From the NCBI GenBank assembly GCA_025330725.1, contig JAIWND010000002.1:1178001-1242000 (forward strand): a stretch of DNA of 64,000 bases. Direction: 5' to 3'. Under the pieces are notes generated by a model. The model was not told the DNA's origin. It searched no databases and saw only the letters and a program-made list of their open reading frames with translations. This document shows positions 4,796 to 58,761 of the stretch, one piece after another. This DNA is from Chlamydoabsidia padenii (Eukaryota > Mucoromycota > Mucoromycetes > Mucorales > Cunninghamellaceae). The position numbers and the translations under genes are program-made. Numbering within the stretch: the first letter of the stretch is position 1; the number at the start of each line of letters is the position of its first letter.

Positions 4796-6696
4796 CTATT
4801 GACGTTGATTCATATTTCCACGTGGATCATATTCCTTGATATCATCACTGGTGGTGATAGAATTTGCCTTTTCATTGTGATGAATTACTACGTCCTTCAG
4901 GTTTTCTGTAGGTTCTTGATGGTGATGATGATGATTGTCCTCTGGATCACTCTGGTAGTCTCCATCATCTTCATTTTCGCGCTCTTCTTGCAACAATGCA
5001 TGTCTTCGGGCCAATTCTTCCTCTCTCCATTCTTCCCCACGGAAGGAACCTTCGATTCTAGCCATCACACAACAACCCAGGCAATTACCAACAACATTCA
5101 ATGAGGTTCTTGCCATGTCCATGATAGCATCTACACCAATGATCAAAGTAACAGCAGACATGGGGAGATCATATTGTTCGAGGGTTGCCGTTAAAACAAT
5201 GAGTGATGCTCGAGGAATCTATTTGAAGAAAATTCATGCAAATTTTAAAACCCCGATTTTTTTTTTTTTTGAAAAAAATACTTACAGCGGCTACTCCTTT
5301 GGAAGATAGCATCAATGTACCCATGATGGATAACTGAGTAGAAACAGGAAGATTGATACCAGCGGCTTGAGCTGCAAAAATACTTGCTAGGGCCAAATAC
5401 AAAGTTGTCCCATCCAAATTGAAAGAATAGCCTACGGGGATGACAAACCCAGTGATGGCATTGGGACACCCGAATTCCCTCATTTTTTCAAAAGCCTTTG
5501 GCAGGGCAGATTCGCTTGATGCCGAGCTGAAAGCAATAAGCCAAGGTTGAGCGACTGCTTTGAAAAAACCGTAAACAGGGATTCGTGCGAGCAACAAGAT
5601 GGGGAGTAAGATGACGATAAAAAAAATCATCAAGGATGCATACAAAGAGCCAATCAGTTTACCAAGATTTGACAAGATGGAAATCCCATTCGCTCCCACT
5701 GTATTGGCCAGAGCAGCCCCGATGCCTATGGGCGCATAACGCATGACAAGGAATACAAATTTAAACATCACCTAATGGGGAACTTATTAGTACTACTGCA
5801 TGAATTATGACAAAAGGGATGACTTACCTGAGATAACGATGAGTTGATGCGTAACATGAATGCTTTGGATGTCTTATCAGCAAGCATTGTAGCACAAGCA
5901 AACATAGCCGCACAAAACACAACACCGAGGATAGATCCATCCACTGCTGCTTTGAAAAAGTTTTGTGGAACAATCAAATTCAGTTCCTATACAAAAAAAG
6001 AAACAGAAATCAGAAATTCGAACCATCAATCCACAGCATTTTTAAACCCCGCTTACATGATCCCACGATATTTGTCCACCTTTATCACCCAAAGAGGTTA
6101 CATCACTTCCAGCATCAGATGGTAGAACAACACCTTGACCAGGTTTAATCAAGTTGGCCATGATCAATCCGACAGCTAGAGCAAACGTTGTCACCACTTC
6201 AAAGTACTACAAAAATAAAGGGGTCAATGCATTGTCACTCGTCGGGATTTGAAAATGGCATTTTAAAAACACTTACGATAATGGTTTTCACTGCTAATTT
6301 GCCCACTTTAGATACATCGTCACCATGACCAGCAATACCAACGACAAGAGTGGAAAAAATTAAAGGTACTTCGACGATTTTGATCATGTTGATGAACGTA
6401 TCCGCCAATGGTTTGACCGCTTTACCCGCCTCAGGGGCAAAGTTCCCAATGAGTATGCCCAACACCATTCCGAAAACGATCCAAAAAGTAAGATTGGTAT
6501 GTCGTCCTAAAAAGCGCCATGTGTGTATAAAAGGTTGAAATATACCACGATCCACAACAAAATGAATGGCTTTGACGGTTTTCACCACGATGGGGTTATA
6601 GGTGGCGGGCTTTTCAGGGGGAATCTCTAATGAGATAGTCTTCTCGATGCCTCGATTGGATCTTTTGAAGTAACTGAGAACTTTGCCTTTCTTCAT
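4796..6696 (-). CDS. Dicarboxylate/glutamate:cation symporter, SLC1 (DAACS) family
   Basis: Five exons: 6277-6696, 6057-6206, 5828-5986, 5286-5771 and 4796-5218, giving 545 residues. It is predicted to import acidic amino acids or C4-dicarboxylates with Na+ or H+ across a membrane. Family marks seen in order: the transmembrane segment TFWIVFGMVLGILIGNFAP, VPLIFSTLVVGIAGHGDDV, YFEVVTTFALAVGLIMANL, the Ser-rich motif SSASSESALPKAFE of re-entrant loop HP1, PVGYSFNLDGTTLY (TM7 substrate/cation site), and DAIMDMARTSLNVVGN (TM8). The last motif resembles bacterial GltP/DctA more than animal EAATs. The C-terminal tail is cytoplasmic, acidic and His-rich. A CGGGATTCGAA motif lies 109 bases upstream. 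Typical bacterial members have about 430 residues; the extra length is N- and C-terminal extensions. Substrate is not determinable here. Confidence 0.93.
6243..6253 (-). promoter_or_regulatory. CGGGATTTGAA motif inside intron 1 of the symporter gene
   Basis: Exact CGGGATTTGAA on the plus strand, within the 70-base intron at 6207-6276. It is an intronic copy of the motif seen upstream of many genes here. Function unknown. Confidence 0.5.
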
Positions 6697-8139
6697 CAGA
6701 GTAAAAAGGAGAAATAAAGTAGAGTTTTTTTTTTTTTTTCTTATTTGTCCTTTATATATATATGTGAAAATCTATAAATTTCCTTCTTTGAACGAATTCA
6801 TATGCGGGATTCGAAATATTATTCGGCAAAGTGAGAGGAAAAAAAAATAATGAGACCAATCAATCCTGCCTTCCACAAGTACAACAGTAATCCAGGTCTA
6901 ACACACTACCTTATCTCCAATTGCTCATGTGATAGTTGAACTATATACGAATTCATACTAGTTCAATTTTTCTTTATGTTTGTTTTGTTTGATCTGTCGA
7001 AGGAGTTGTATTTCTTTGTGTGATCATGAAAAAAAAGGAGCATACATAAACGAACACGGTAAGGATATGTCCAAAACTAGAGAAATCCGAGTGTACTATC
7101 AAGCAATATCACATCACCTGACTCTGCTTTTTGTATTCTCGTCTCAATATAACAAAAAGGAGGTGTCTTTTTTGGTAAAGAGAAATCTTAGGTTACCCCT
7201 AAAAACAGAGATTTTCTGATTCAGTGTAACATAGGACATTTCTTGGTGTTCTTTGCGTGATGCCATATTCTTCCTATCATTAAAACCATATTCCCATTCC
7301 TTTTCCAAAGGACCCTTGAAGTAAATAAATGATAAATGAGTTCCCCACCAATGATGTCGAGAGAGGGAGAGGGAGAGGGAGAGATTCAAACAAAGCATTA
7401 TACCGTGTTACAAAAAAAAAAAGTAAAACATTGTTTATTTCAAATTCAAATAACATACTATACTATAGATTATACAAAAAAAAAAAAAAAAAAAAAACTT
7501 TAATCCTATTATTTCTAGGCTGACTACAGTTCCAGAGGAGGTCGGATGATTCACGCAGAGTCCACCATGCCATAGGTCGAAGGTGATGATTTCGTTTCCA
7601 ACAGGTAATCGACAAAGTACCATCGAATAAAAAGTATACTGTTTTAAAATAGTTGAGGTTGATTGTTCGTAGTCAAGATAGTTGTCAATTCTCTAGTGAT
7701 GCTATGTTGTTGTCGTTGTTGTCGTTGAGTGTCAGAAAGCTGCTTGTCAAATTTGACTAGGCAGTTCGGTTCATGCCTTGACATATTTTGACAAGGAGTT
7801 TACCATGAAGAATCAGCACCAAGCTATAAAGAACTTGAAGGTATTGTTGGGAGTACCACTACAGCATCAATTGTAAACAAGGTTTACCATGTCATAGTTA
7901 TTTTTAATGCCCCACATCCAGCGTCCCAGAAGTATCGCCGTTACAGTGCCCATAGTTGATCGAATACTACCAAAAGACAGTTTCTGCAAAATATAAACCG
8001 AGTTTAGTACCGTTTAACATATAAAGCTGATAGCACATTACAACTTACAAATAGGCTCCAAGATGATTGTGGAAGAAAGAGGAAGAAGGAGGTAAAAAAA
8101 AAAGAAACATGGAGGCACTCGCCAGATAAATTCAAAAAC
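6697..8139. other. Intergenic; weak coding-like signal on the minus strand
   Basis: No gene is recognised. The minus strand has a good intron-like segment (donor GTAAGT near 8048, branch TACTAAAC, acceptor TTTTGCAG near 7986). It also has open stretches at 7435-7623 (MVLCRLPVGNEIITFDLWHG) and 7144-7398 (HHWWGTHLSFIYFKG, SRKEHQEMSYVTLNQ). They could not be joined into a continuous frame. There is a poly(A) tract at 7477-7497 and a (GAGAGG)n run at 7362-7383. This could be a fast-evolving small gene sharing the kinase promoter, or a remnant. Confidence 0.3.
6805..6815 (-). promoter_or_regulatory. Upstream motif CGGGATTCGAA (symporter)
   Basis: Variant of the recurrent motif, 109 bases upstream of the symporter ATG. 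Read toward the gene it is TTCGAATCCCG. Confidence 0.5.
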
Positions 8140-8150
8140 TTTAAATCCCG
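8140..8150 (+). promoter_or_regulatory. Upstream motif TTTAAATCCCG (kinase)
   Basis: Recurrent motif, 92 bases before the kinase ATG, followed by CT-rich DNA up to the start. Confidence 0.6.
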
Positions 8151-8241
8151 ACAGCTCGTTCATTTTTTCACCCCTTCCGTTTCTGACTTTTTTTTTTTTT
8201 TTTTTTTTTTCTTCTTCTTTCCTCTTCCATCCTTCCAAACT

Positions 8242-10844: not shown

Positions 10845-10884
<40 letters not shown>

Positions 10885-11825: not shown

Positions 11826-11837
11826 TTTGAAATCCCG
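11826..11837 (+). promoter_or_regulatory. Upstream motif TTTGAAATCCCG (mitochondrial carrier)
   Basis: Recurrent motif, 83 bases before the carrier ATG. Confidence 0.6.
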
Positions 11838-12563: not shown

Positions 12564-12624
<61 letters not shown>

Positions 12625-13507: not shown

Positions 13508-14043
13508 ATTAGTTTAGTTGCTTTATGTCTTTGAATCTTAATAAAAGTCTTTACAATGTATATTCCCTTTACATCATCTTACGGTCTCCTCTATTATGTA
13601 CTGTATTTTCGTCATTTAAATACAATTGTCTTGAATTCCCGAGACACAGATTTAAGATTATGCAAAGTCGTCTTGTTGATTAATACTCCGGTTAAGGAAG
13701 AGACGTCGTGTATGACCCTCAATATATATGATGTGCCTTCCAGTAAAGATTTTTGATTTTATATAATCTGTCATGTCAATTTCAAATCCCGAAAAGATAT
13801 GCGCATAAACGTCCTACTGACCGATAAATCATTAAAAAGGAGGTATCAAGATTATTTTTTAAACACAATGATTTTATTATAGACACAGTAAAACAGTAAG
13901 ACAAGAGGATATGTTATATGTAAGTATATATGTGTATGTGGATATGATATAAAACAATATGACTATGGTAATGATGGGTCGTAACAATGATTATGTGAGC
14001 AGAGAATTATATGTTAATGGGGAAGTGAAGGGGGGGTATAAAA
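13508..14043. other. Spacer between convergent genes with an orphan motif
   Basis: Lies between the 3' ends of the carrier (plus) and PTC7 (minus). Polyadenylation-like AATAAAAG is near 13541. It contains an exact TTTCAAATCCCG although no gene start is nearby. Confidence 0.5.
13780..13791 (+). promoter_or_regulatory. Orphan exact TTTCAAATCCCG motif
   Basis: Perfect copy of the recurrent motif between two convergent gene ends, with no recognised start codon downstream on either strand. Confidence 0.45.
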
Positions 14044-15737
14044 CTATGGTAAAGGAGGAGGGGAAGGACCTGGATTCTGGTCACGATCAATGACAGCGAC
14101 CAGCACACTGATATCATCAGCTTTGCCACCCTAAGATAAGACAAAAAAAAGAGGTGAGTCTGTATATTAATAAGATCATTTCCCCTTTCCCTATACTATT
14201 CCACTCTTACCTGATAATAGAGACCTTCATGCATTGCTCTAACTTGGAAGGGAGAAGTGGGATTGTCTGGATCTTCACTAACAACCTTTGCCCTAAAAGC
14301 AAGTGCATCCGATATAGCTTGTACCGGTAAATTCGATAGTGATAGTGATGGTGGATCAGAAGATTCCAGTGTTGGTGATGTTGATAGTTGTTGAGATCGT
14401 TCTTGTTCTATACAGTTCTGTATCTCTTCCAAGATTTCGTCGTCGTAGAGGTTGTCGAATAAGCCATCAGATGCTAGGACTAAGATATCTCCTTCTTCCA
14501 CTTTGATAGTAAATTGCTGATTTTTTTCGAATATTAATGTTAGAATGTATATAGTCCCAAGTTGCAAGTATTGTTTACCTGTGCATCCAAAGGTGAGTCA
14601 AAGGAAGCAGTTCCGAGTTGGAATGGAAAGTTAAAGGAGTGTTGCTGTTCTTCAGATCGAAAGATATAGTCATTTTTTCGTATCACCGATATTCCACAAT
14701 CACCCAAATTGGCCACCCGTAATTCATCCTGGCACAGTACAACAATACATGCAGTTGTCGATCCAACAATTCCCTAACAAACAAACAAACAAACAAAAAA
14801 TAAAAGAGTAAGTACAACAACATGGACACAAAATAGAAAGCGAAGAATTGAGGAAAAAACCTAATACACAGACCCGCAGATTCATGTTTCTACAAGAAGT
14901 AGTATTAAGTTTTCCCCTCAAAACAAACATCATTTTCCTTTAAACCATTCCTTTTTATCATTACCTCGTTTTGAGCATCCAAGCTTGTGAGGTGATAGGC
15001 ACTCTCTAGTATTTCTATGGGATTCGGAAGATGTTGCGGAATATGTTGTGGGCGTACATTGGTCTTGATTCGATCCAATTCCAATTGTGCGTAATGCATC
15101 AGTTTTCTAGAATAAAGTGCAGGATTTGCTCCTAAATGAATAGAATAGGGTGGTTAGTACAATGTAAAAGTCGTCTTTGTTCATATCATATTATTACCTG
15201 TATGAGTTCTCCAGCCTATAATATGATCAAGTATTTTTTTTTTTAAAAAAAAAAACATGTAAGTACCCCTTCCATCAGTTGTTTGATATCCTTCATCTTA
15301 CCACCAACACCATCGCTGACACCAAGGCTATCATTTCGTACAAAGTAGGCATCATCCCCTACCTGAATACTAGTATAAATGCCAGCATCTTGGTCTGAGT
15401 CGTCGTCTGTTGCCACCACCTTACCAGCTTTTGCGTGACCTGATACACCGTATTTCAACGTATAGTTATGTGGCGTACTTGTTGCAAGATCAGGATCAAA
15501 AAAGTCAATCAAGTTTAGATTGGACCGTGCTTTTTCATTTCGAGAGATGGCGGCCGCTGAGTAGTGTTTTCGTTGTAGGTAGTGTGACAATAAAAAGAAG
15601 ACATGTGGTTTTTGCCGTTGCTGTAGAGTTGATGACGATAGTAGGTGCTGGAATCGTGCATGTTGTGGGAAAGAGTGCGGGCCAATGGCTGAACGTCGAG
15701 ACAGAGGTCGAAGAATGGGTTGGACATTTTGTAGCAT
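14044..15737 (-). CDS. PTC7: PTC7-type mitochondrial PP2C phosphatase
   Basis: Six exons: 15302-15737, 15198-15215, 14965-15131, 14579-14773, 14211-14516 and 14044-14130, giving 402 residues. The Ptc7/PPTC7 family dephosphorylates mitochondrial proteins such as the coenzyme Q hydroxylase Coq7. The N terminus (LRPLSRRSAIGPHSFPQHAR) is Arg-rich without acids, as in a mitochondrial presequence. Metal-binding motifs in order: GVSDGVGG plus W, completed by the 18-nt second exon (motif around residue 142); ANLGDCGISVI; LVLASDGLFDNLYDDEI; GGKADDISVLVAVI. An extra Ser/Gln-rich segment (SQQLSTSPTLESSDPPS) lies between the last two. Reading through the first intron would replace the conserved Trp with Lys, which supports the microexon. 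Motif TTTCAAATTCCG lies 185 bases upstream. Confidence 0.93.
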
Positions 15738-16541
15738 GGGAATATTACACAGTAGTAAACAAATGACAAGGAGAGTAGTATTGGGATAAGATTAAAGAGA
15801 TGGAGAGATATGATTAGGTTGGAAGAAAGTAAAAGATAAAAAAAAGTGTGCCTGTGAATGAAAAGGAAGGAGTAAAAAGGAGAAATGTAAAAAACGGGGG
15901 AGTCAGATTTTTTATACATATTTTCAAATTCCGCTAGTCAGTGGAAAAAATCACGAGCCAGTTTTCATGCCATCGAATGATAACTTGAACAGTCTCCATG
16001 TATTCCAGTGTTGGGCTCACAAGTACTTTCTACATACTTCGATATACTCATTTACCTTTTTGAATACAATTCGCCTCTCAAGTGAGCCCACAACCCAATC
16101 ATGACATGGGATTACCTGTGCAAGTTCGTGAATACATCCACTCCTTTAACGACAATGTGTCTGACAACAACTATAATTCACGTTCCTGTGAGTGCAGCAT
16201 CTGCTTGAAGAAAAAGAAATGACGGTGTTTAAATTGTGCCTCACTGGGATTGAAATGTTATAAAAATCGTGTTGAGGCAACACCCCTTCATAGTTACTGA
16301 TGAACCCCTTTTTCATTTATTTAGACTGGTACCAACTACCCTTTTACTTTGAAAGAATCACACTCATATTCACATATCGTTCCTTTCAGACAATGAGAAG
16401 AGAAAAATGTCAGACTGAGGATTGATATGCCGATTTTCTCATGTTGTACATAACTCTATTACCTTCTTTTAATGAAACTAAAGATACCATTAAAAATCCA
16501 TAGTAGCCATAAAGTTTCTTAAAGCACTGTTCTGCTTATCA
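15738..16541. other. Divergent intergenic region (PTC7 / peroxisomal carrier)
   Basis: Carries two copies of the recurrent motif, 15922-15933 and 16542-16553, one nearer each divergent gene. No ORF of note is seen. Confidence 0.5.
15922..15933 (+). promoter_or_regulatory. Upstream motif TTTCAAATTCCG (PTC7)
   Basis: One-base variant of the recurrent motif, 185 bases from the minus-strand PTC7 ATG. This is farther than usual, so the transcription start may lie closer to it. Confidence 0.45.
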
Positions 16542-16553
16542 TTTCAAATCCCG
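16542..16553 (+). promoter_or_regulatory. Upstream motif TTTCAAATCCCG (peroxisomal carrier)
   Basis: Exact motif, 85 bases before the ATG at 16638. Confidence 0.65.
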
Positions 16554-17891: not shown

Positions 17892-18036
17892 TTGCAGTAT
17901 TAGATTAGTAAAACTCCCCTTCCTAATAGATTTATTGATAATATCATCTTTAGATTTTAGATTACTAAACATTTATAATAAACATCCTATGAATTTTGTG
18001 CCAATCTCTTTAAATGATACATATAATACTGTTGTA

Positions 18037-19745
18037 CTAGTTTTATTAAAATAAGTAAAATAAACGTCGTTTTGTACTAGTTTAAAGGAATGATAACAGC
18101 AATGATACATAGGCAAAGAAAGCAAACAGTCAGTTAGTACACGTGGACAGCCCATTTTGTCTTTGGAAATGATAAAACTTACCAAATAATGCAGTTTAGA
18201 GCAGGTTGCGATCACTTTTTCAGATGAAAAAGAAAAAGAAAAGAAAGTGGAGGTGAAGAAATTTCAATCTTTTTACAAAATACATCAGTGCTGGGAAAAT
18301 GGAAGAAAAATGAAAATTGATGGTGAACCAACCAATTCAATGGAGCAAACCCTTGTCAATCAGTTGGATAAACGATATAATCACATGTATTTGAACAGTT
18401 TCACTAATCACAAACATGCTGATCATAAGGCAATACATGTAAAGAAGCTAGGATGTAATGGTGGCGGGATTTCAAAAAACATCGATCAATGCAAAAAAAA
18501 AAGAGTCTGGTTATGATAACGTTATGGGTATCAATAGACCCCCTGTTTCCCTCTTTTCCTAATCAAACTACATTCCAATCGGCAGATAATCGTTGCAGCC
18601 TGGTTGACCACACTGGCAGTGGCGGAAGGAGAGAGGAAAGAAGACAGGGCAGAGAGAGACAGAGAGAGGATTCATCCAATTATATTGGAGGTGGAGAGGA
18701 GGGCGGAAAAAAGACATAAAAGATGAAGGGAAAAAAAGGTTGTCAATCAGTGTTGGGGAAATGATAGCGTATGAAAATTGATGGTGAACCAATCATTCAA
18801 ACAATGGATAAGAATGCCTCAAAGATAGGAGGTGGTCAGTACTAGGGAAAGCGTACGATTTTTAGGATTAGGTCTAGATGTAGCCAATCAAATCAGTAAT
18901 CCAAAAAGATGAGGTTTTTATTAGACGTCAAATGGTTATGGTATTTAGGTTAAAAGCCAAGTACCAAGTCCCTTGTGTCAATCTGTCCGAACTTGCGATG
19001 ACTTTTACCTGTCATGAAACCCACTTCGTGTTCAAATCCCGCTTTACCTTGATTCCTTACTAAGATATTGGATGGGCTCTCCTCGCTCCATTGTTAAAGG
19101 ATGCTAATGATTAAAGTGGTGATGTGAATACTATGACCCATTTCCAACATACTTTACCGCAAAAGTCAAGCACCAGGACCCTTGTGTTAGTCAGTCCAAG
19201 CTTGTAATTAGTTTCACCTGTCTTTTGCAAGAAGACATTTTTTACAGACAGAAACAAAAAGAGTTTTCAAATCCCGCCAGTCCCTAGTCAGAGTGGGAAA
19301 GGGCTCTACTCGCTCCATTATCAACGGATGCTAATGATTAAAGTAGCCATGTGGACACTATGACCTATTTCTAACATACTTTACAGCAAAGTCAAGCTCC
19401 AAGATCCTTGTGTTGGGATGTTTAGACTTGCAATGACTTTTACCTTTTCTTTGCGACGAAAGATTTTTTTTTTGTAGACGAAAGAAAGCTTCATTTTCAA
19501 ACGCCGAACACCAAAATTCAATACGCCTGCATGATCATGGAGGGGAAGCGTCGTCAGTCGAGATTTCGTTACTTGTTATAGAGCCCAAATTTATATATTC
19601 AGTCTTTCTTTACCCAACTTCTCCCGTGGCTCCCTCTTTGCGAGGGCACTCTATTCCATTTCTATTACTATCAACACATTGTTGCGCAAAAAAAGCGGGA
19701 TTTCAAAGTTTTATGAAGTGTGAGATGTCCGTACGATTTGGCGTT
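18037..19745 (+). repeat. Long dispersed repeat, copy A
   Basis: About 1.7 kb of non-coding DNA matching 45287-46800 in the same orientation. Blocks seen in both: AAACAGTCAGTTAGTACA (18118 / 45384), GCGATTTTTAGGATTAG-like text (18854 / 45562), CAAATGGTTATGGTAT (18929 / 45637), GGATGCTAATGATTAAAGTGG (19097 / 45832), ACGAAAGAAAGCTTCATTTTC (19480 / 46223) and GAGATGTCCGTACGATTT (19723 / 46781). Copy A has about 500 extra bases (18190-18840) relative to copy B. No ORF with recognisable protein, terminal repeats or target-site duplication could be defined. It may be a non-autonomous mobile element or a decayed larger one. Confidence 0.8.
18960..19500 (+). repeat. Internal tandem units of copy A (about 209-226 bases)
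   Basis: The phrase (A/C)CAAGxxCC..CCTTGTGT recurs at about 18971, 19180 and 19406. Each is followed by a related block with a TTTCAAATCCCG-like site, a CTCGCTCCATT block and GATGCTAATGATTAAAG. The units have diverged by many substitutions. Confidence 0.7.
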
Positions 19746-19877
19746 TTAAAACAACAGTATGATTTTATTTATATAGAAGAGTGCTTTGTTGTACTGTAAC
19801 TGTACTATTATATTTTAAATCAATAGCTATGATATAGTCTACGTTTCATATCCCCTGCTCCCTTTGGCCAAATGGTC

Positions 19878-19894
19878 GGCACCCCTCGGGTGCC
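19878..19894. other. Perfect 7-bp hairpin
   Basis: GGCACCC, loop CTC, GGGTGCC, in a locally GC-rich patch of an AT-rich spacer. No RNA gene could be matched to it. Confidence 0.4.
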
Positions 19895-20096
19895 TGCGGC
19901 GCAAATTTGTCGATACATTTACGTTTAGGCGTAGAATTACAATACAACTTTTTGATGGAGTCAGGGGTCACACCAATCAGCAGACAACATCGGCGTTTCA
20001 AAAAGAATGGGAAAGACAAGTACACACATAAGCATAATATGATGTGGTGTGAAGGTGGATGGACCTTTCATCAGATCAAATCACTGCCTTTTCGAG

Positions 20097-20119
20097 CGGG
20101 ATTTAATTTTCAAATCCCG
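20097..20119. promoter_or_regulatory. Inverted pair of the upstream motif (OST48)
   Basis: CGGGATTTAA at 20097-20106 faces TTTCAAATCCCG at 20108-20119, forming a near-palindrome 93 bases before the OST48 ATG. Confidence 0.65.
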
Positions 20120-21181: not shown

Positions 21182-21219
<38 letters not shown>

Positions 21220-22529: not shown

Positions 22530-22540
22530 CGGGATTTAAA
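22530..22540 (-). promoter_or_regulatory. Upstream motif CGGGATTTAAA (ALKBH7-like)
   Basis: Reverse orientation relative to the gene, 94 bases before the ATG. Confidence 0.6.
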
Positions 22541-24880: not shown

Positions 24881-24891
24881 CGGGATTTGAA
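24881..24891 (-). promoter_or_regulatory. Upstream motif CGGGATTTGAA (proteasome beta1)
   Basis: Exact motif, 156 bases from the minus-strand ATG. It is followed by AATTCCCCG, making a loose palindrome. Confidence 0.55.
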
Positions 24892-25270: not shown

Positions 25271-25314
<44 letters not shown>

Positions 25315-25710
25315 TGGCCGTTGTCACCAATTGGTAGGGCAGGACACATATCAGCTGTGTAACAAAGAAGGCACTGGGACGATTTGGCGGCGTTTCAAAA
25401 AAAATTCAAAAGGTTCTTGGCTTTCCTTTTCCTTTTTTTTTTTTCTCTTTTCTTTTCTTTTCATCCTTGTCAGTTTTTTTTTACTTATTAAGTACTTGAA
25501 GGTAACTTATCAAAAGAAGATATAGATCAAAAGAGTAGAGTGGGGAAGGTCTTTCACCTATGAGAGGATACTAAAGTGTCAACTCATAAGTGACAGTGGG
25601 GTGGTGATGGTGGTGGATGAATTAAACGCGTCTTGTTGTCAGTCCCTGTCAGATAATGGAAAACAGACTTTATATACTCATCATCTTTTTATTATTATTG
25701 TTGTAATAGT
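24903..25710. other. Divergent spacer with 41-base poly(T)
   Basis: Contains T41 at 25273-25313. The recurrent motif is absent upstream of the methyltransferase; an ACGCGT (MCB-like) hexamer lies at about 25627. No gene seen. Confidence 0.5.
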
Positions 25711-28699: not shown

Positions 28700-28710
28700 C
28701 GGGATTTGAA
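28700..28710 (-). promoter_or_regulatory. Upstream motif CGGGATTTGAA (kinesin-14)
   Basis: Within GGCGGGATTTGAA, 84 bases before the kinesin ATG. Confidence 0.65.
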
Positions 28711-32527: not shown

Positions 32528-32539
32528 CGGGGCTTGAAA
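32528..32539 (-). promoter_or_regulatory. Weak motif variant CGGGGCTTGAAA (LRR gene)
   Basis: Two mismatches from the consensus and 206 bases from the ATG. Listed only as a possible copy. Confidence 0.25.
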
Positions 32540-35911: not shown

Positions 35912-36986
35912 ATGGATGGTAATGTACTCCCCTTATTCTTTTTATATGTACCTCTTTAATACCACTATTCATAATTTACCATGAACCCTTTGAAGATGCG
36001 CATGGTATTATTTGAAGGATTATGGTTTGTTTTGTTTTGTGGTCTCCGCACTCTATCCCCTTCTTGACACACACACACACACACACACACACACCTTTAT
36101 ACAATACTGCACTCTGTTCTCTCTATCTTTAACACCAAATGTCAAGTTGGATGAACTGCCATCTTTTTGGCATTCAACTTGACTTGAAATGGGATCACTG
36201 GGGGTTAACGATGTACCACCATTCATCTAACGCTGTTAAAAGATGATTGGGACACTCGTAGTTATAGATACCCAACTCCACCTCATACGCGCCTCTTACC
36301 TACTCCCTATGCACACTTTATCCCCTCCATTCTTTATTCCTAACATGCACTTGGTATTGATGTATTAACTCGACTTGTATTTTTTAGGTCATGACACGAT
36401 AAACCATCATGCCGGTCATCCTGCTCATTCGGACACCAACAGCAGTATAGACGACAATTATGCTACTGCTCCTCGAAAACGTAAACAACGGCAACATGTT
36501 TTTTCATCAGACGAAGACGATCAAGATATGGACGATGTATCACAAGGCAGTTTATCCCCACTATCCGACAATGAAGGATTATCCGATGACACCAACAATA
36601 ACAACACCTATCACAATACCAACACAAATGAAGACAGTCTCAGTGACATTGATATCTCTAATGGTGACGATAATGGCGATGAACAAGAATCCTTTATTGA
36701 AGTCAACGAATCAACACCAAATGCCAGCACAAATGTGGATTCTGACTATCTTGATCCTGATCTATATTGTTTACGACGATCCAACCGCAACAGACATCAA
36801 CAATCGAAATATACCGTAAGTTCCCCTTAATATTTGGTTCCGCCTCTTAATCTCCCTCCTTTTATAGACAATTCAACATCGACAACAACGAATTTATGAC
36901 GATGACGACGATGAAGAAGAAGATTCATATGCATCAGCGACTCCTGACGAAAACTCTGATGACCTAGATAAAAGTGATGACAATAA

Positions 36987-37017
<31 letters not shown>

Positions 37018-40000
37018 TATGGTGCGTCTACAACAAGGAAATCTCGCACACGGCCAAAACGAACATCCACTAGACGATCGACTAATTCAAGACAAACTAG
37101 AAAGGGTGCCGCTTGGTCAGGTAAAGACTTGAACAAAGAAATCGGGGAGTAGAGGTTATTATGTACTGACTTCTTTTTTGTATACTTTTCTTGACAGATA
37201 ATGTACCATCAAGCCTATATAGAACCAAGCAAAGATCACCAGATGACGATGATGATGATGATGATTTAGAGGATGCTGAAGACGACAACGGTGATGATGA
37301 TGACGACGATGATGTATGGGGGAAATCAAGGTCTAATCGAAAACGATCTACTAGAAAACTGAAACGACTTGGTCGAGGTAAAAAAAAAAAGTGATTCCAG
37401 CAATTTATCAAACTGACGTCTATATACACTCTGTAGGGCAATCTGTATCTCCAAGTGACGCATTAAGATACTCTACTCGAAAACGGAATGTGGCCAATTA
37501 CAACGAAGAAAACTCTGGCTTATGGGGAATATCTGACGAAGAAAGTGAAGGTGATACTGGTGGGCGCAATTCTAGTAATACTCCCGTTATTGGTGGTGGT
37601 GGCTCCTACTCAAATCCAATGCAAACAGAAGATGAAGGCGATGTTATAGAAAGTGTGCATGATCATCGGATAAAAGAAGGACATGGTAATAAAAAAAGAA
37701 AAAAGAAAATCAATACAACTCGTCAAAAGAATATGGATACTGATGATTGTTTAATAATTTATAGAAAATGACAATGGTGAACGGCCTGAAATCAACATGG
37801 AATTCCGTATCAAGTGGAAGAACTGGTCACATATTCACGACACTTGGGACTCAACAAGCTATTTACGATCATTCAAGGGTTATCGCAAGGTGGAAAACTA
37901 TATCCGGACCTTTGTTGAAGAGGAACTCTATTTTCGCAACCATCCCGAAACCACCAAAGAAGAAATCGAACAACAAGACATCAACACTGAACGACGTCGC
38001 GATGAAATCAAGGATTGGTGTACTGTGGAACGTATCATTGGCAAACGAGGTGTATCATCCAACACTGAATATCTCGTCAAATGGAAACGACTACACTATG
38101 ATGAATGTACCTACGAAAATGCCGATCTTTTGTGCAACAACAGCTACAACACCAGCAATCAAAGTCAGCAACAAATCGACGCCTTTTTGGACCGCCAGCA
38201 AAGTAGGCGTATCCCTCATTTATCCGAACACTTTAGCACCAACAATAATAACCATTATCACAATCAGCGAAAACGACCCACTTTCTCTGTATTGCGAGAA
38301 CAACCATCGTATATTAAAGGCGGCACACTTCGTGATTATCAACTTCATGGAATCAGTTGGATGTATTGGCTTTGGTGTACGAACAAGAATGGTATGTTGG
38401 CTGACGAAATGGGACTTGGAAAGACTGTACAAACTATTGGATTCCTCAGCACCTTATTCCACAAGCATGCTCAGTATGGTCCCTTTTTGATTGTGGTGCC
38501 TCTCTCTACTTCTGAAAACTGGATGATGGAATTGAAGCAATGGGACCCTGATATGAATGCTCTATGTTATGTTGGCAATCGTGCATCGCGTCAAATGATT
38601 CGGGACCAAGAATTCTATCTACCTCCTCATGGCTCATCATCAACAAAACGACTGAAATTTAATGTGCTGGTAACTACCTACGAAATTGTACTCAAGGATC
38701 GTGATGTACTTGGTGCTATTCCATGGCAATACTTGGCGGTGGATGAAGCACATCGTCTAAAGAACTCTGAATCGCAACTCTACGAAGCTCTTCAAGGATT
38801 CCGGACTGCAAATCGGCTTTTGATCACTGGTACTCCCCTACAAAACAGCGTCAAGGAATTACTGGCTCTGGTGCGATTCTTGATGCCGACCATGGATCTC
38901 AGCGAATTGAATGTGGATCTGGATAAAGTCTCGGATGGTGGTGGTGAACAAGAACGAAAAATCAAGGCGCTTCATGAAAGCATCAAGAACATCATGTTAC
39001 GGCGACTCAAGAAGGATGTGGAAAAGTCTCTACCCAACAAAACCGAGCGGATCCTGCGTGTGGAAATGAGTGATCTCCAAAAACTCTTCTACAAGAACAT
39101 CTTGGCCAAGAACTTTGCCGTCCTCAGTAAAGGCTCCGACAAGAACAAGAAACAATGGCTTAACATCGCAATCGAACTAAAGAAGGCTAGCAATCATCCA
39201 TTCCTCTTCCCCGACGCTGAATCTCAAACAACAAGCAGAATGGAACAACTCAAGGGCTTGGTGGAAAACAGTGGCAAGATGATTCTTCTCGACAAGCTTT
39301 TGGCACGTCTCAAGGCGGATGGACATCGTGTGTTGATCTTCTCTCAATTGGTGATGATGCTGGATATCTTGTCTGACTACCTGGCGTTGCGCGGCCATCC
39401 TTTCCAACGACTGGATGGTAGTATGAAACCTGAAGAACGTAACAAGGCGATCGAACATTTTAATGCTCCGGAAAGTCCTGATTTTGTCTTTTTGCTGTCA
39501 ACGCGGGCGGGCGGCATGGGCATCAACTTGGTGACGGCTGATACTGTGATCATCTTTGATTCGGATTGGAATCCTCAAAACGATTTACAAGCAATGTCTC
39601 GTGCGCATCGAATTGGTCAAACCAAGTCTGTCAATGTATATCGATTTGTGACAAAAGGAACCATGGAAGAAGACATCATTGAACGGGCTAAGCGCAAAAT
39701 GGTTTTGGAATACTGCATCATCAAGCAAATGGATACATCTGGACTGACTCTTCTACCTGAAAATGCGACCACACTGACCACGGCTGCTGGCAAGATTCGT
39801 GAACTACCCTTCAACAAGGACGAAATGTCGGCGATTCTCAAATTTGGTGCTCAAAATATGTTCCAGGCGAATGAACATACCGAAAAACTAAACGATTTGG
39901 ATCTGGATGATATCTTGGCTCGGGCTGAACACACTGAAACCATGGATGGGGTGGATGATAGCGCACTCGGTAGTGCAGACTTTTTGGCTCAATTCAAGAT

Positions 40001-42074
40001 CTCTGACTATGGCGGCAGTGCTAATGATCTCTCCTGGGACGAAATCATTCCGGAAAACGAACGGCAACAGATTGCTGATCAACAACAAGTGGAGGATGAT
40101 TTGGCCTTGTATGAACGAGCAGCACGGAAACGAGGACGAACGTATCAAGAACATGGTGACGATGATGACGGAGATGACTCACTCAGCAGCAAGACAGGTG
40201 GAACAGATACCGACAAACAAAAGAAGCGGCGTCGAAGAGCGAATAACGGTAATGGTGTCGATGGCGGTCATTCCAATGGTACTTCTACACACTCTGGTGA
40301 ATCATCGACGGAGCTGTCGGAAAAGGATCTACGTGCGCTGCATCGAAGTGTCTTGCGCTATGCTGATTTGAATGTGCGATATGACGAAGCAGTCAAGGAT
40401 ACGGATTTGGAACACAAGGACAAGGCTACAGTTATGTCATTTTATCAAGATCTCGTCAGCGCTTGTAAAAACAAGGTGAAGGAACAAATTCAACTACAAC
40501 AAGGGGACAAGGTGGACTATGGCAGTGACAGTGACACTCGATGGGTCCGTGAAATCCGACAAACGAAGCAAAAGGCAATTCTATTTACTTGGAACAACAT
40601 TATGAACATCAATGCGGGACAATTGTTACAAAGACACCACGATATGAAGATCCTTGCTCGGCGCCTCAATGTAATGGGTGATATGCTTAGGTTCCGACTC
40701 TCCTTGGATGCCAAACGTGTGCAGGGCTGGTCTTGCTCATGGGGTCAAAAGGAAGATGCAATGCTTCTGGTGGGTGTCCATCGACATGGATTTGGAATGT
40801 GGCCAGCCATCCAAGCGGATGCGTCTTTGGGTCTGACTGGCAAGTTTTTCTTGGGCTCCTCCTCAAACAACAACAACACCAATACCAATGGGAATGGCAA
40901 TGACGAAGATAACGACACGGATAAACGTACACCCAAGGCTGTCCATTTGGTTCGTCGTGCTGAACAATTATTGAAAATCTGCGCCGAAGAAGAACTTGCT
41001 GCCTCTCCACCAAAAAAACAAGCTCGCCTGACATCAAATGGTGAAATCGACACTTTTATAAAGAAGAAAAGAAAATCGACAACATCAAACAGGAAACGAC
41101 AATACACCGATGACGATCTTATATCCTCTCATAAACCCTCACCTCAATCTACATCTTCACCGTTGTCTTCTGCTTTGGATAAACCCTCATCAATGACCTC
41201 ACCTTCCATCTCCGGTACCAATCCATCATCAAGGAAATCTTCTGAAAAAGGTAGTAACAGCAAGGACATGGTCGATGATGAAGGATACACCAGCTATGAC
41301 GAAGACACCACCCGATCTTCCATGCGACATGTAAAACAATACCTTGTGCGACTACGTGATGATGCTAATAAACAAGAAGGACAAGCAAAGGCGGCCATCA
41401 TTAAGCGATGCATCTTCAAGATTGGTGGATTTATCGACAATCAAGCTAGGGCAACTTCTTCTCAGCGACGCTCGCAAACGCGAAGGAATATGTGGCTGTA
41501 TACAAAGAAATTCTGGCCAGGATCTGCGGTGAAACATACTGATCTTATCAATGTATACGACAAGATTATTCTGGCACAGTCACAAGAACAACAACGCAAC
41601 CATGATACTTCCGAAAAGACAACTACCAAGAAAGACGATGGAGCAAAACGGCGAAAGGCGTCTCATACTAGCAGCAGCAGCAGCAGCCATCACCACCATC
41701 GCCGTGATTCTTCACCATCCCGCCATCATCACCATCATCATAGCACAAACGAAAGTCGCCGACGGTCTTCTCGAAGCACATCACCGCGCCGTAGCAGCAC
41801 CGATCACCATTCTCATCGACATCGTCAGCGTGATAGTCATCATCATCACCATAACAGCAAAAGTCGATCATCTAACACTTCGTCATCAAATAACAATCAA
41901 CATACGAATGATCCGACCACTTCCACTACATTTAATGGTGATTCTAGCAAAAACAATCATCGCTCCAGCTCCCACAAATCGTCCCATGGCACCACTAATC
42001 CATCATCATCACCTTCTTCTCATCGACGACCTAGTCAACAAAGCCACCGTAATAAAGATAGTAAACATAGTTAG
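35912..42074 (+). CDS. CHD1: CHD1-type chromodomain ATP-dependent chromatin remodeller
   Basis: Six exons: 35912-35918, 36388-36815, 36868-37120, 37198-37377, 37437-37685 and 37765-42074, giving 1808 residues. CHD1 spaces nucleosomes behind RNA polymerase II. The first coding exon has seven bases (Met, Asp and one base), followed by a 469-base intron, long for this window. Domains: an acidic, Asp-rich N terminus; double chromodomain ([32 protein letters not shown], about residues 383-500); SNF2 ATPase with DEMGLGKT (around 585), DEAH (around 698), [18 protein letters not shown] and helicase C ([30 protein letters not shown]); then SANT/SLIDE-like and C-terminal helical (CHCT-like) segments ([20 protein letters not shown]). 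The last about 150 residues are His/Ser/Arg-rich. The C-terminal order and double chromodomain fit CHD1, not CHD3/4 (no PHD). Confidence 0.95.
36067..36092 (+). repeat. (AC)n microsatellite in CHD1 intron 1
   Basis: Twelve to thirteen uninterrupted AC dinucleotides within the long first intron. Confidence 0.9.
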
Positions 42075-44325: not shown

Positions 44326-45286
44326 GATAAAAAGAGGAGGAGGAAAAGAAGGAGTTTAAATAGTCAAGATACAAAAAGGTAAAAAAGAAGTGAAAGAAAA
44401 GTGGAAAAAGAAAAATTTAGAAGAGATTGGGATTTTATAAATAAAATAAAAAAATGGAGTACATATGCTGAGGCTTATTTTCCCCCTCCCCTCCCACATT
44501 AAACTGTCAAGTACTCTTAATTGACGCCCCCTTGATCATTTTAAAAGTGATACTTCATAAAAAGCACAACTTGTACCAAAATCAATATGGCATGAAAAAC
44601 AAAAATAAGCTCTTCTTTTGTGGCAATCACCACCATCCGATCTCTTGGGCTTATTGATCGTAACTTTTTTTTTTTTTTTTTACCAGTTTCAAAACCGTTC
44701 ACCCCTTTTTTTCATGTCACACAACAAGATCAAAACTGAAGCTCGATGGGGAGAATGATACTATGACCTGTTATATTTCCGTTAAAAGAAAGGTATTAAC
44801 TACTACATGTACAAAATGCATCTTAAAATGAGATCCATTCTTTTCTAGTTGTTTCTTCATGTAACCCCTCTGCCCCTTGAACTTTCCTTTATTAAAGCCC
44901 GACATTAAAAGTCGGCATTTGAATTCTTGCGACACCAGTTCAACTGCAGGGTGGTATTTTCTTTACAGCCAATGTCCTGTTTTCTAACAATCAGATAAGC
45001 TTATTTCAAAAAGGGATGTGCAGCTTTGTCTTGAATTTAAGCATTCCCTTTCTTTTCCAGTATTTCTTTTTCGAAAAAAGGATCATCAATGCTACATCAA
45101 AGTTGCATGTGTCTCAATCTTACAACCTCTTTTTTTTTTTTTTCTTTTTCTCATAACTCTTTAAAAACCACAATGAAAAGATCCCCAGAGCATAAGAATG
45201 GTATCATGCTTTTTTAGTGTTTGGTCGACCTGGTCTAAATATTGACATCCCGACTTGGGCGAGGTAAGCATTGAGATACTTTACCT
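44326..45286. other. Intergenic spacer upstream of the velvet gene
   Basis: No ORF of note. CGGCATTTGAA at 44913-44923 is a distant motif variant, 588 bases from the velvet ATG. Several T runs. Confidence 0.4.
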
Positions 45287-46800
45287 ACTAGTTTTGTTAA
45301 ATAAAAGAAACAATAAAATATACGATGTTTAAAAGTAGTTGAAAGAAATGATCAAAAGCAATAATACATTGGAAAAGAGAGCAAACAGTCAGTTAGTACA
45401 TATGATCAGTCCCTTTTGTCATGGAAATGATAAAACTTACCACCGAAGTGCAGTGATGTCGGGGAAGCGATAACCCCCCTGAAAAGATTTGAATATAGAG
45501 GAAGACATAATGGATGAGGAAAGAAAAAAAGTGAAGCACAGTAGAACCTATGGGAATCGTGCGATTTTTAGGATTAGTCAATCAAATCAATAAAAAATAA
45601 GGGATACAAAAAGATGGGGTCTTTAATAAACGTCAAATGGTTATGGTATATAGATTAAAAACCAAGCACCAAGTTCCCTGTGTCATTCTGTTCGAACTTG
45701 TGATGACTTACCTGTCATTTGTAAAAAAAAAAAAAAAAAGTGTGGAGAGGAAACCCACTTCGTATTCAGACCGCGTTTTCCCTTGATTCCCTACTAAGAT
45801 TATGGATGGGCTCTCCTCGCTCCATTGCTAAAGGATGCTAATGATTAAAGTGGCGTTGTGAATAATATAACCCATTTCCAATATACTCTACTGCAAAAGT
45901 CAAGCGCCAGGATTCTTGTGTCAGTCTGTCCAAGCTTGCAAAGAGTTTCACCTGAATTTTGCAACGAAGACTTTTTCTTACAGACAGAAGCAAAAATCAT
46001 TTTCAAATCCCGCCAGCCCCTAGTCAGAGATGGAAGGTGCTTTACCGCTCCATTGTCCACGGATGCTATTGATTAAATTGGCCATGTAGGCACTATGACC
46101 CATTTCCAACATACTTTACTGCAAAGTCAAGTACCGGAGTTCTTGTGTTAGTATGTTTAGGCTTGCAATGACTTTTACCTTTTCTCTGCGACGAAAGATT
46201 TTTTTTTTTTTTTTTTTTGTAGACGAAAGAAAGCTTCATTTTCAAGCGCCGAACACCAAAATTCAATGCGCCTGCCGGGAAGTGTTGTCAGTCGAAAAAT
46301 TGACAACTTGGTTCAAAACCCGCTTACACTCACCTTGAATCTTAGGAGAGCTCTACTGCCTTAATGGACAAGTGATCCTCATGACAAAAGTGACTATGTG
46401 CATTCCTTAGCCTATTTCCAACAATGTTTACATAATGGCCATTGTACCAAGTCCCTTGTATGGAACAGTATAGCCTCAAGATTGTTTTACCCTGACTTTT
46501 GTGAAAAAAAAAGTTGCAGAATGAGATTTCGTTACTCGTTGTAGGGCTTAAATTTATATATGCAGTCTCTCTCCACCTCTTTGCGGGGGGCACTCACTCC
46601 AAAAAAAAAAAAAAAAATGCTACTCTGTTTTGTGAAAGTCTCTCTCTGCCTAGCTTCTCCTGTGTCCCCCTCTTTGCGGGGCATTCCATTACTTTTTTAT
46701 TACCGTCAACACATTGATACACTAAAACGCGGTGTTGTAAAAATCGTAATTCCGAAGTTTTATGATGATGATGAAGTTTGAGATGTCCGTACGATTTTTT
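45287..46800 (+). repeat. Long dispersed repeat, copy B
   Basis: Direct-orientation partner of 18037-19745, about 27 kb away, lacking copy A's 18190-18840 segment but carrying a fourth tandem-like unit (GTACCAAGTCCCTTGTA near 46444). Tandem units begin near 45665, 45898 and 46126. Contains TTTCAAATCCCG at 46001-46012 and GGTTCAAAACCCGC at 46310-46323. Clear indels (for example poly(A) at 45724-45740 and poly(T) at 46200-46218) separate it from copy A. Confidence 0.8.
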
Positions 46801-48571: not shown

Positions 48572-50159
48572 CTATTTTGATACTACTATGCACATGTTTC
48601 TAGGTGAAGCCATAGGATCAAATAGAGGCCACATCTGGACAGCCCCACCATTGTCGGTCAGAGACTTGAGATACAACCATCGATCCACCAAAATTAAACT
48701 TTCCAGCACAGGAGCAAGTAATACGCGCAATGTCCAAAGCACGATAATTTGTTTATCCACCTGTTGATCTTTATACATTTGATGATACGTTTCCGCCTCC
48801 ATTTCAGAGATAGCTTCTGGTGCATAGTCGAGCCGCTTCATTGCTGTTTGGAAGTATTGAATATAAGACTTTTTCCGCTTCACCATACCAATAGGAGGAG
48901 CCTTTTCTGATAATCCTTTATCGACAATCGTGTGCTATTAATTAGAAAATGAATATTAGTAGAAGTATGGGTACGTTTATTTTTATGCAATCCACCCCTC
49001 TTACTTACCAGTAACACCGCCCGATAAAAGTATTGATTAAAAGATTGTTGACCAATCACAGGATCAGTCCATTTGGAAGGAGATTGACAAGCAAGCACGC
49101 GAGCACTATTACCCAATTGATAGTCTTTTCCCTTTAACCAGTCGCCCATGGGAAAGCCAGGTTGGAGACCTTGTTCAGATAAAAAGTGATAGCAACAACC
49201 CACATTGACAGCCCATTTGATTTGATCACTATTAGCAAATAGTCGGAAGATTGAAGTAGCCAAATCACCACAAGTATGTAAACCACACACTATCCAATGG
49301 CCATCATTATCATCACCCCATTTCGTCAAGACATCACCCACATTGGCGGGTGTCACCATTTCAGTCACGTGTTTGAGAGTGCCATTGGGTTGTTGTTGAT
49401 CGTCCAATGCCTTAAGTGCCCGTTGATCGAATCGTTCCGCCCCTTTGGTTTGTATTTCGCTCATATCCACAGCAAGCACCTGCATTCCATGCTTGAACGC
49501 GAGAATTCTTGAGAGGTAGCCTTGTCCTGAGCCGAGGTCTAATACTTGAGTGATACCATGAGCATCACCAATCGTCTTGATGAGTTGTGCCAGTAGTTCC
49601 ACTTCATGAATCTTCTTGTCTGACATACCACCTGCCAGTTTGTGTTTATCGACTTTGCCTTGATCATCTATTTTATACATTAGTAAAAATTAAAGTAAAT
49701 CATAAAACAGTATAGTATGTATGTATTTCTTTTTACTTACCAATTGTTTGAGTGCATTGTCGTGGCAGTGGTAGTGTTCTAACCAGTCGCAAATATTCCT
49801 TTAAAGAGTTTGGCCAGGTATCCTATATAAATACAAGATCAAAAACAATTAGTCAGGCATTTGCTTGTTCTTTATTTTTGCCTGATACTTACATTACAGT
49901 AGCTGCTATTAGTCAAGCTTAAAATGGAAGTAAACCAAGTTTGATAGTCTTCTTCATTGTCAAAAGAATCAGGTAGTAGAGCTTGTCGCCAGGTTGGATC
50001 CAACAGAGTCCAGTGCTTCATGGTAATAAAATCCCCTACATGAAGATCCGCAAGCCATCGGTATTTCTCCAAAAACTGGTAAAGAGTTTCAAGGTATTCG
50101 GTAGGTGTTTGATGACTAAAGTCGGCCGGTAGTTGTATATCTTGATTAGGTAAAAGCAT
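48572..50159 (-). CDS. METTL25/RRNAD1-like SAM-dependent methyltransferase
   Basis: Four exons: 49893-50159, 49741-49822, 49009-49667 and 48572-48934, giving 456 residues. Core marks are VLDLGSGQGYLSRILAFKHG (motif I, around residue 157), VLAVDMSEIQTKGAERFDQR, VCGLHTCGDLATSIFRLF, and NVGCCYHFLSEQ with a downstream GFPMG. HTCGDL plus NVGCCYH is characteristic of METTL25/METTL25B, family members of unsettled substrate. The start MLLPNQDIQ was preferred to an in-frame ATG at 50207, which lies only 11 bases from the shared promoter motif. It is divergent from the thioredoxin-like gene with 148 bases between starts. Confidence 0.88.
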
Positions 50160-50217: not shown

Positions 50218-50228
50218 CGGGATTTGAA
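50218..50228 (-). promoter_or_regulatory. Shared motif CGGGATTTGAA between divergent genes
   Basis: A single exact copy, in GGGCGGGATTTGAA, 59 bases from the METTL25-like ATG and 80 from the TXNL1-like ATG. Confidence 0.7.
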
Positions 50229-52042: not shown

Positions 52043-52054
52043 TTTCAATTCCCG
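52043..52054 (+). promoter_or_regulatory. Upstream motif TTTCAATTCCCG (WDR89-like)
   Basis: One-base variant, 83 bases before the ATG. Confidence 0.6.
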
Positions 52055-53729: not shown

Positions 53730-53741
53730 TTTCAAATCCCG
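53730..53741 (+). promoter_or_regulatory. Upstream motif TTTCAAATCCCG (SWF1-like)
   Basis: Exact motif, 94 bases before the ATG. Confidence 0.65.
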
Positions 53742-54526: not shown

Positions 54527-54572
<46 letters not shown>

Positions 54573-55772: not shown

Positions 55773-55783
55773 CGGGATGTGAA
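55773..55783 (-). promoter_or_regulatory. Upstream motif CGGGATGTGAA (uL1m)
   Basis: One-base variant, 137 bases before the ATG. Confidence 0.45.
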
Positions 55784-57086: not shown

Positions 57087-57097
57087 CGGGATTTCAA
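57087..57097 (-). promoter_or_regulatory. Upstream motif CGGGATTTCAA (uL5m)
   Basis: Recurrent motif, 94 bases before the ATG; a 24-base poly(A) lies between. Confidence 0.6.
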
Positions 57098-57190
57098 CTT
57101 TTATTTTGATCCTTCGTCTGGGGATAAACAAAAAAAAAAAAAAAAAAAAAAAAAGGTCCCTTCTCTTCTTCCCTTCCACTGTCAATATCA

Positions 57191-57447: not shown

Positions 57448-57478
<31 letters not shown>

Positions 57479-58106
57479 GAAACACCCTATGTCACTCGTA
57501 CTCGTAAAGGTGGTAAACCTGTCAAACCCATTCTCCCTTTGAAAAGTGCAAAAGCGATTCCTCGTCTCGACAAGATCACTCTACATGCTATGATTAAGGA
57601 TGCTATTGGAAATAAAAGCAACTTGTTATCTGCATTCATGGCCTTTCAAAGCATAACTGGTACTCGCCCTGAAGTAGTGTATGCTCGAACCTCTGTTGCT
57701 AATTGGAAACTTCGGTAAATTGCTATAGCATATTATAATTGGTGGTTACTGACTAAATACTTTTTGTTTTTTGTTTTGGGACTCTAGTGAAGGTATGCCT
57801 ATTGGTGTCAAGGTGACGTTACAAGGAGAAGAAATGTATCAATTCATGGACAAATTGGTGGAAATTGTATTACCTCGGTTAAAAGAATGGCCTGGAATGT
57901 CTATAACAGCAGGTGATGGAAATGGAAATGTGGCTATTGGATTCCCTCCTTCTGCGTTGGCTCTCTTCCCGGAAATCGAAAGCTCTTTTGATGTGTACCC
58001 AAAGATGACTGGATTCGATGTGACATTTAACACTACTGCCTTTACAAACACCGATGGTCGTCTCTTACTCTCTGGATTCTCTGTACCTTTTACTAAAACT
58101 AAATAG
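57191..58106 (+). CDS. MRPL7: Mitochondrial large-subunit ribosomal protein uL5m
   Basis: Two exons, 57191-57714 and 57788-58106, giving 280 residues. The N terminus (MLRSLPRRLNLAPRISSLNT) is a mitochondrial presequence. A Gln-rich linker (TQQQQQHQQQQE) follows. The L5 fold is marked by PRLDKITLHAMIKDAIGNKS, FQSITGTRPEVVYARTSVAN, REGMPIGVKVTLQGEEMYQF, VEIVLPRLKEWPGMS and MTGFDVTFNTTAFTNTDGRLLLS. uL5 sits in the central protuberance and contacts 5S-site RNA or its replacement. Longer than bacterial L5 (about 180) because of the presequence and linker. Confidence 0.92.
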
Positions 58107-58750
58107 ATCCACTAGCGCATACTTTTTTTTTATACATACTATCCCTTCCCCTCACTTACTTGTAGATGAATATCATTCCTTATTCTTGTAGTTTCACTAC
58201 ATGTTTATCATCCCCCTTTTTTTATTTTTATCTTACTTTATAATAAATTCATGATCTCTTCTTTTCTTCATTTGGGTAACATAATAATGCAAATGTGACC
58301 AGTTTTAATTGATGGGCACTGCGTTTGTAGCTTGGACCCTTTTTATTCAAGGCGTACCTGTTTTTAAAATCCAGATCCAGATCCACATGCCAGGGGCTCA
58401 CTTTGGCGCATGAACCTAATGTATTGTTCTCTATGCAAATAACATCATGCATAAAGTAAAAACTCACAATGTAGATAAAAGGATTAAAAATATTCAATTC
58501 CCGATTGAACCCCAAGATGTTCGCATCAGGTATGATATCAGGCACTTCACAAATCCGTACTTTTTCGTTCACATGAAAACTAATATCGATATTATGTCAT
58601 CTCTTACATTTCTCTGTAACCAAACATTTGTATTGGAGGAGGGAATATCACCAAGCTGAAATATCAACTCGATTAGATTCATCGTTTTGTAGAGATCAGG
58701 ATGTGTATGTTACTACTCCAATGAAAGCTTCAATTTGAATGCCCGAATTC
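58107..58750. other. Intergenic spacer
   Basis: Contains one distal motif variant, ATTCAATTCCCG at 58492-58503. No gene is supported. Confidence 0.4.
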
Positions 58751-58761
58751 CGGAATTTGAA
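58751..58761 (-). promoter_or_regulatory. Upstream motif CGGAATTTGAA (PDAT)
   Basis: One-base variant, 105 bases before the PDAT ATG. Confidence 0.5.

Follow-up and report, generated by a model that had tools for sequence, protein, structure and literature searches.

A start-linked TTNAA-N3-CCG element in the mucoralean fungus Chlamydoabsidia padenii as a putative general-regulatory-factor site

The general regulatory factors of yeast (Reb1, Abf1, Rap1 and Cbf1) bind sequence-specific sites that may face either way, stand before many unrelated genes and often lie between divergent genes; the Reb1 core is TTACCCG. Elsewhere, the motifs M1BP and DRE in the fly and NRF1 and NFY in mammals occur in housekeeping promoters at a preferred distance. 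Here we describe an element with the consensus core TTNAA-N3-CCG-(A/C)(C/T) in C. padenii, noticed in a window of 64 kb (assembly GCA_025330725.1, contig JAIWND010000002.1, positions 1,178,001 to 1,242,000) during an earlier reading made from the letters alone, hereafter the sequence-only reading. The element is real, strong and start-linked, and precedes about two thirds of the sampled genes. It shares with the yeast sites the properties just listed, but its sequence is another and here one element is present in about two thirds of the sampled promoters. As with the fly and mammalian motifs, many housekeeping promoters carry this one motif at a favoured spacing, although sequence and lineage are unrelated.

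The genome (34.2 Mb, 95 contigs) was used for exact-word counts, and the detailed analysis covered 264 kb of this one genome, made up of the window and 200 kb from contigs 1 and 2. For one exon of the mitochondrial L5 gene the best named protein matches come from Chlamydoabsidia padenii (85%), Absidia cylindrospora (78%) and Cunninghamella blakesleeana (75%), which very probably places the genome in the Mucorales close to these genera. Genes were predicted with a gene finder written without knowledge of the motif, which yielded 102 genes scoring above 15; their 453 introns have a median length of 73 bp. The scoring matrix was seeded with the motif from the sequence-only reading and was held out by training on two blocks and testing on the third, with upstream regions of up to 260 bp; a count of enriched 8-mers was unseeded. 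Score cut-offs were >8, >9, >10 or >12 bits, according to the test.

Words of the element are far commoner than their reversals across the genome: 2,353 copies against none for TTTCAAATCCCG, 7,567 against 359 for AAATCCCG and 453 against 3 for TTTGAAATCCCG. Within the window, TTTSAAATCCCG occurs 11 times where 0.02 copies are expected, a number reached by none of 100 shuffles. Motif discovery upstream of ATGs, which the sequence-only reading had proposed, took the form in this sample of a k-mer count that took no account of the motif; in the stretch 40-170 bp ahead of the ATG it ranked AAATCCCG first among enriched 8-mers, present in 27 of 100 promoters where 2.7 were expected. That reading had given the consensus as TTT(C/G)AA(A/T)(T)CCCG; the motif itself stands, and its core is better written as above, with the fuller form TT-N-AA-(A)-(T/C)-(C/G)-CCG-(A/C)-(C/T). 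The TT, AA and CCG positions are nearly invariant, while N is most often C (about half of cases), less often T or G, and rarely A.

The element is linked to gene starts. At >10 bits the held-out matrix matched 67 of 99 upstream regions, compared with 0/99 for the reversed matrix, 1/99 for the column-permuted matrix and 0/99 for the first coding stretch; the recurrence before unrelated genes claimed from the window is borne out, with a larger effect than first reported, as is, in this sample, the excess over shuffled and coding DNA on whose absence genome-wide that claim was to fall. Of these 67 matches, 47 lie 60-129 bp before the ATG (measured from the edge of a 17-bp window), against 22.9 if placement were uniform. 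Copies with at most one mismatch stand 20-250 bp before the ATG of 34 of 102 genes, and with at most two mismatches before 56 of 102, while coding sequence holds none of 66 copies with at most one mismatch. Counted from the motif centre at >12 bits, density per 10 kb is 0 at 0-40 bp from the ATG, 31 at 60-80 bp and 154 at 80-100 bp, then falls to 79 at 100-120 bp, 21 at 120-140 bp, 31 at 140-180 bp and 13 at 180-260 bp, and is 18-22 from 260 to 1,200 bp. The positional peak foreseen in the sequence-only reading was reproduced, at 80-120 bp, and its individual distances agree to within 1 bp at 15 of 16 genes; at the sixteenth, a symporter gene, our start is placed differently and the copy at 6243 lies in a predicted intron. 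Overall, the 264 kb hold 210 matches >10 bits, versus 16 in the reversed sequence. They include 72 in 250-bp upstream stretches (20.9 kb; 34.4 per 10 kb), 80 in other intergenic DNA (53.9 kb) and 23 in DNA masked as repetitive by self-comparison (7.7 kb).

The element is neutral with respect to direction, as had been claimed: 70 held-out best matches >8 bits divide into 40 and 30 between the two orientations relative to the gene (p=0.28). Among intergenic spacers of at most 400 bp, an element is present in 9/9 divergent, 15/23 tandem and 0/7 convergent ones (Fisher p=9e-5, divergent versus convergent). Divergent promoters of at most 300 bp carry at least one element in 9/9 cases and exactly one in 7, and in several of them a single element lies near the middle, at distances of 92/91, 100/77 and 63/85 bp from the two starts. 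Elements also occur in close pairs, 27 at spacings of 8-60 bp against 13.2 under random placement; at 19-24 bp there are 9 pairs against 1.6 expected, a count reached by none of 2,000 placements.

A pyrimidine tract accompanies the element. In 57 genes, C+T stays at or above 69% between 35 and 85 bp downstream of the element centre and peaks at 82% at 55 bp, and the enrichment is confined to the gene side in 32 tandem promoters and present on both sides in 25 divergent ones. The spreads are alike (19.8 bp for element to tract, 24.2 bp for tract to ATG and 20.2 bp for element to ATG) and favour locking of the tract neither to the element nor to the ATG. Tracts were sought only between element and ATG, which accounts in part for their mean position close to halfway (52 and 49 bp); we therefore rely on the base-composition profile.

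Our preferred reading, which we hold with a probability of roughly 0.7, is that TTNAA-N3-CCG-(A/C)(C/T), found within 260 bp before about two thirds of the sampled predicted starts, is likely where one abundant general promoter factor would bind, keeping promoters open without regard to direction. The element would then likely be a putative general-regulatory-factor site, with direction coming from the pyrimidine tract; enrichment before unrelated genes and free orientation, two marks of that class, were both found. Building on the computed features (form, distance peak, rarity in coding sequence, orientation neutrality, sharing between divergent genes, pairs at 19-24 bp and the pyrimidine tract), we propose that one protein or complex reads both TTNAA and CCG, and that the bound factor may displace nucleosomes as yeast general regulatory factors do. 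Promoters would be kept open by this factor without direction being set; the gene-side tract probably marks the start site of RNA polymerase II (Pol II) and so would give direction. In a bolder version, a single lineage-specific factor would be the master organiser of mucoralean Pol II promoters: it would open most of them, among others the one before the gene for the Pol II largest subunit, and would replace TATA and the yeast-type set of general regulatory factors, direction again being given by the separate tract. We regard this version as tentative, conceivable rather than probable.

Several observations weigh against the general-factor reading. The gene starts come from prediction, and 264 kb out of 34.2 Mb were sampled. 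At >10 bits the held-out matrix also matches 31 of 98 downstream stretches, a score that may owe something, but not everything, to the promoter of the next gene, which lies close behind where the genome is compact. Introns (40.1 kb) hold 17 matches >10 bits (4.2 per 10 kb) and predicted coding sequence (141.3 kb) holds 18 (1.3 per 10 kb), and 23 unmasked matches >12 bits lie inside predicted genes; some intragenic matches perhaps reflect a start predicted too far upstream, as may hold at the symporter gene. A check with coding-scored open reading frames (ORFs) instead of gene models gave a weak result, with 14 of 135 copies standing 60-130 bp upstream of such an ATG where 6.6 were expected. 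Evidence for DNA-helix phasing of the elements is marginal (p about 0.025, with 12 periods tested). Seventy copies outside repeats (>12 bits) have no predicted start within 260 bp. Only 20% of them have a pyrimidine tract; the figure is 65% for promoter copies and 7% for random intergenic points. As 20% falls between these two values, a minority of the distal copies may be unannotated starts; more generally, copies elsewhere between genes could be further factor sites, unannotated starts or decayed sequence.

Some of the same observations favour a boundary or insulator site, with a CTCF-like or extra-TFIIIC-like role, that separates genes and whose ATG-proximal place merely reflects a compact genome. 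Distal copies outside repeat cover reach 13.1 per 10 kb (0.23 in reversed sequence), the contrast between spacer types is gone at 400-600 bp (convergent 6/6, divergent 5/6, tandem 3/6), and over all lengths matches per 10 kb in convergent spacers (19.9) are about equal to those in tandem ones (21.1), with divergent spacers at 28.7. These distal copies and this convergent-spacer density, along with the intragenic matches and the weak ORF check, keep a boundary role among the rivals. We nevertheless consider it unlikely: the 80-120 bp peak is sharp, with 4-8 times the density seen at 260-1,200 bp, the convergent spacers of at most 400 bp are empty, and within 100 bp of the stop codons of convergent spacers the element is rare, at 2.2 per 10 kb.

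A TATA-like core promoter element, to which a general transcription factor would bind about 30 bp ahead of the start site, would explain the preferred distance from the ATG, the onset of a pyrimidine-rich stretch some 25-40 bp downstream and the AT-rich TTNAAA half that adjoins the GC-rich half. The sequence-only reading had suggested a core-promoter or start-linked element, and of these the start linkage holds. A strict TATA-like sense is doubtful because both orientations are used and one copy can be common to two divergent genes; TATA-like sequence, moreover, is equally common in genes with the element (18/73) and without it (7/26). We judge this explanation quite unlikely.

Two further parallels drawn in the sequence-only reading, to an E2F-like half joined to the CHR element and to the TFIIIC B box, did not survive comparison. 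In the CHR and CDE-CHR elements bound by LIN54-MuvB an AT-rich TT..AA half likewise stands beside a GC-rich half, but LIN54 binding to the CHR requires TTYRAA, according to PMC4974476, while the TTNAA half of the present element has no such constraint. TTYRAA occurs in 50 of 70 elements, equal to the 49.7 obtained under independent shuffling of columns, and 20 of 70 lack it; the E2F/DP consensus TTTSSCGC occurs in 0/70 and its part SSCGC in 28/70. The genome has six E2F/DP domain loci, the CCCG(C) of the element resembles the E2F core, and PMC4862756 reports that zygomycetes kept E2F and lost pRb, all in favour of a DREAM/MuvB-like complex in general use. Yet the MuvB families TCR, LIN54 CXC, DIRP and LIN52 gave no match in the genome, whether to LIN54, to LIN9 or to LIN52, although short domains are detectable there, since the 39-position Zn_clus domain gives 46 matches; the control genomes were silent too, so that absence is not proven. 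An E2F/DP site joined to a CHR is, on balance, very unlikely.

The TFIIIC B box has the consensus GWTCRANNC and shares the letters TTCAAATCC with the element, which needs neither the leading G nor a C at the variable position. That consensus is present in 0/70 elements, and the G-initial form GTTCAAATCCCG is 12 times rarer genome-wide than TTTCAAATCCCG (196 copies against 2,353). A search of the window for a Pol III gene found no tRNA (ARAGORN, bacterial code) and no Rfam family at gathering score.

Dispersal by a transposable element, of which the copies would now be fossils, is scarcely credible: copies of a dispersed repeat each carry several elements, and 23 of the 210 sample matches are in masked repetitive sequence, but sensitive cover by this one repeat family takes in 0/65 unmasked promoter matches and 1/70 unmasked distal ones, and position relative to the ATG is peaked.

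As for the factor itself, Gal4-type Zn2Cys6 proteins include some whose sites have one CGG, and the element, in which an AT half flanks a nearly invariant CCG/CGG triplet, is reminiscent of these; no monomer zinc-cluster site that has a TTNAA half so spaced is known to us. One guess is that the candidate binder is a protein with a CGG-reading zinc cluster. Zinc-cluster matches occur in closely spaced pairs, with open frames of equal length, at C12:838259-838531, C17:327872-328138 and C51:27544-28092, possibly tandem Zn2Cys6 domains. Word and letter searches of the literature, with most subscription journals outside their reach, showed no such element in Mucorales or other fungi among the matches listed. 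The class is known, while the sequence, its dominance and the lineage appear new. If the general-factor reading is true, a single direction-neutral site with a separate tract would make promoter bidirectionality directly testable; the element would also help the annotation of gene starts in Mucorales and would serve as a concrete bait with which to isolate the lineage's general promoter factor.

Of the 23 genes predicted in the window, 16 have a match (>9 bits) in the 300 bp upstream (Table 1). Pfam supports the identities of OST48, a proteasome subunit, ribosomal L1 and L5, a kinesin, LCAT (PDAT), an SDF symporter and Methyltransf_32; PTC7, the peroxisomal carrier, ALKBH7, WDR89, SWF1 and the kinase had no Pfam match at 1e-8 (one exon each), and these names, like TXNL1 and the carrier at 11920, are those of the sequence-only reading. 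The inverted pair before OST48 reads about CGGGATTT-N6-AAATCCCG.

Table 1. Elements (11-bp cores) and repeat copies in the window, in window positions.
Feature	Position	Strand	Context	Score (bits)
Element near symporter gene	6243..6253	-	In a predicted intron; upstream by the start of the sequence-only reading	22.5
Element	8140..8150	+	91 bp before predicted ATG 8242	17.3
Further element	11563		346 bp before ATG 11920	19.1
Element	11827..11837	+	82 bp before predicted ATG 11920	20.2
Element between convergent genes	13781..13791	+	No predicted start downstream	17.8
Element	15923..15933	+	185 bp before ATG of minus-strand gene 14044-15737	20.6
Element	16543..16553	+	84 bp before predicted ATG 16638	22.1
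Repeat copy	18035..20012	.	Dispersed, non-coding; elements at 18465, 19031, 19266, 19496, 19696	
Inverted element pair	20097-20107, 20109-20119	-, +	Before predicted ATG 20212 (OST48)	13.5, 21.8
Element	22530..22540	-	93 bp before predicted ATG 22634	20.8
Element	24881..24891	-	155 bp before ATG of minus-strand gene 23784-24725 (proteasome subunit)	22.9
Element	25388..25398	-	312 bp before predicted ATG 25711 (CMAS-type methyltransferase)	18.6
Element	28700..28710	-	83 bp before predicted ATG 28794 (kinesin)	22.5
Element	32528..32538	-	206 bp before predicted ATG 32745	17.7
Second repeat copy	45286..46716	.	Dispersed, non-coding; elements at 46002 and others	
Element common to divergent pair	50218..50228	-	58 bp before minus-strand gene 48572-50159, 79 bp before 50308	21.2
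Element	52044..52054	+	82 bp before predicted ATG 52137	19.9
Element	53731..53741	+	93 bp before predicted ATG 53835	21.6
Element	55773..55783	-	136 bp before predicted ATG 55920 (ribosomal L1)	17.6
Weaker element	55786		Near ribosomal L1	10.5
Element	57087..57097	-	93 bp before predicted ATG 57191 (ribosomal L5)	18.7
Further element	58493		362 bp before ATG 58866 (LCAT family)	17.5
Two weak elements	58735, 58751 (58735..58761)	+, -	Before predicted ATG 58866 (LCAT family)	9.9, 12.1

Element-bearing genes of the sample include those for a dynamin, a cation ATPase, argininosuccinate synthase, a cyclophilin and a protein with Rpb1 domains 5 and 7, which we take from these domains to be the predicted Pol II largest subunit. 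In 26 genes there is no element within 300 bp, 6 of them having a copy at about 300-360 bp; genes without an element include those for CHD1, a Sec7 protein, a dehydrogenase of the Iso_dh family, L7/L12 and an adaptor subunit. The CHD1-type remodeller gene of the window (36528-42074) is one with none within 300 bp of its predicted start. Pfam comparison of one exon each, from 20 of the 26 genes without and 20 of the 73 with an element, gave housekeeping genes in both groups, and we therefore claim no split between housekeeping and other genes.

Four of the 11 TTTSAAATCCCG copies in the window (18465, 19265, 19696 and 46001) are within the dispersed repeat and not in a gene promoter, and one (13780) is between two convergent genes. 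The repeat has 573 first-look candidates in the genome, of which 40 were scored, and the long scored copies are 84-89% identical to the query; repeat-like promoter sequence gave 1 match. Across 11 copies, the element cores are 93-98% conserved and the region mean is 85%, but 11-base windows have a median of 91% and a 95th percentile of 98%; since the cores lie within this spread, the element is not clearly more conserved than its surroundings in the repeat. Related arrays of units of about 210-240 bp, which start near TTCAAAACCCGC, are found on contig 1 at 506301-507331 and 538326-538770. The first of these has units in both orientations, like a fold-back element. Long pure T runs are present on the plus strand of the window at about 12568-12623, 21184-21218, 25273-25313 and 54529-54570.

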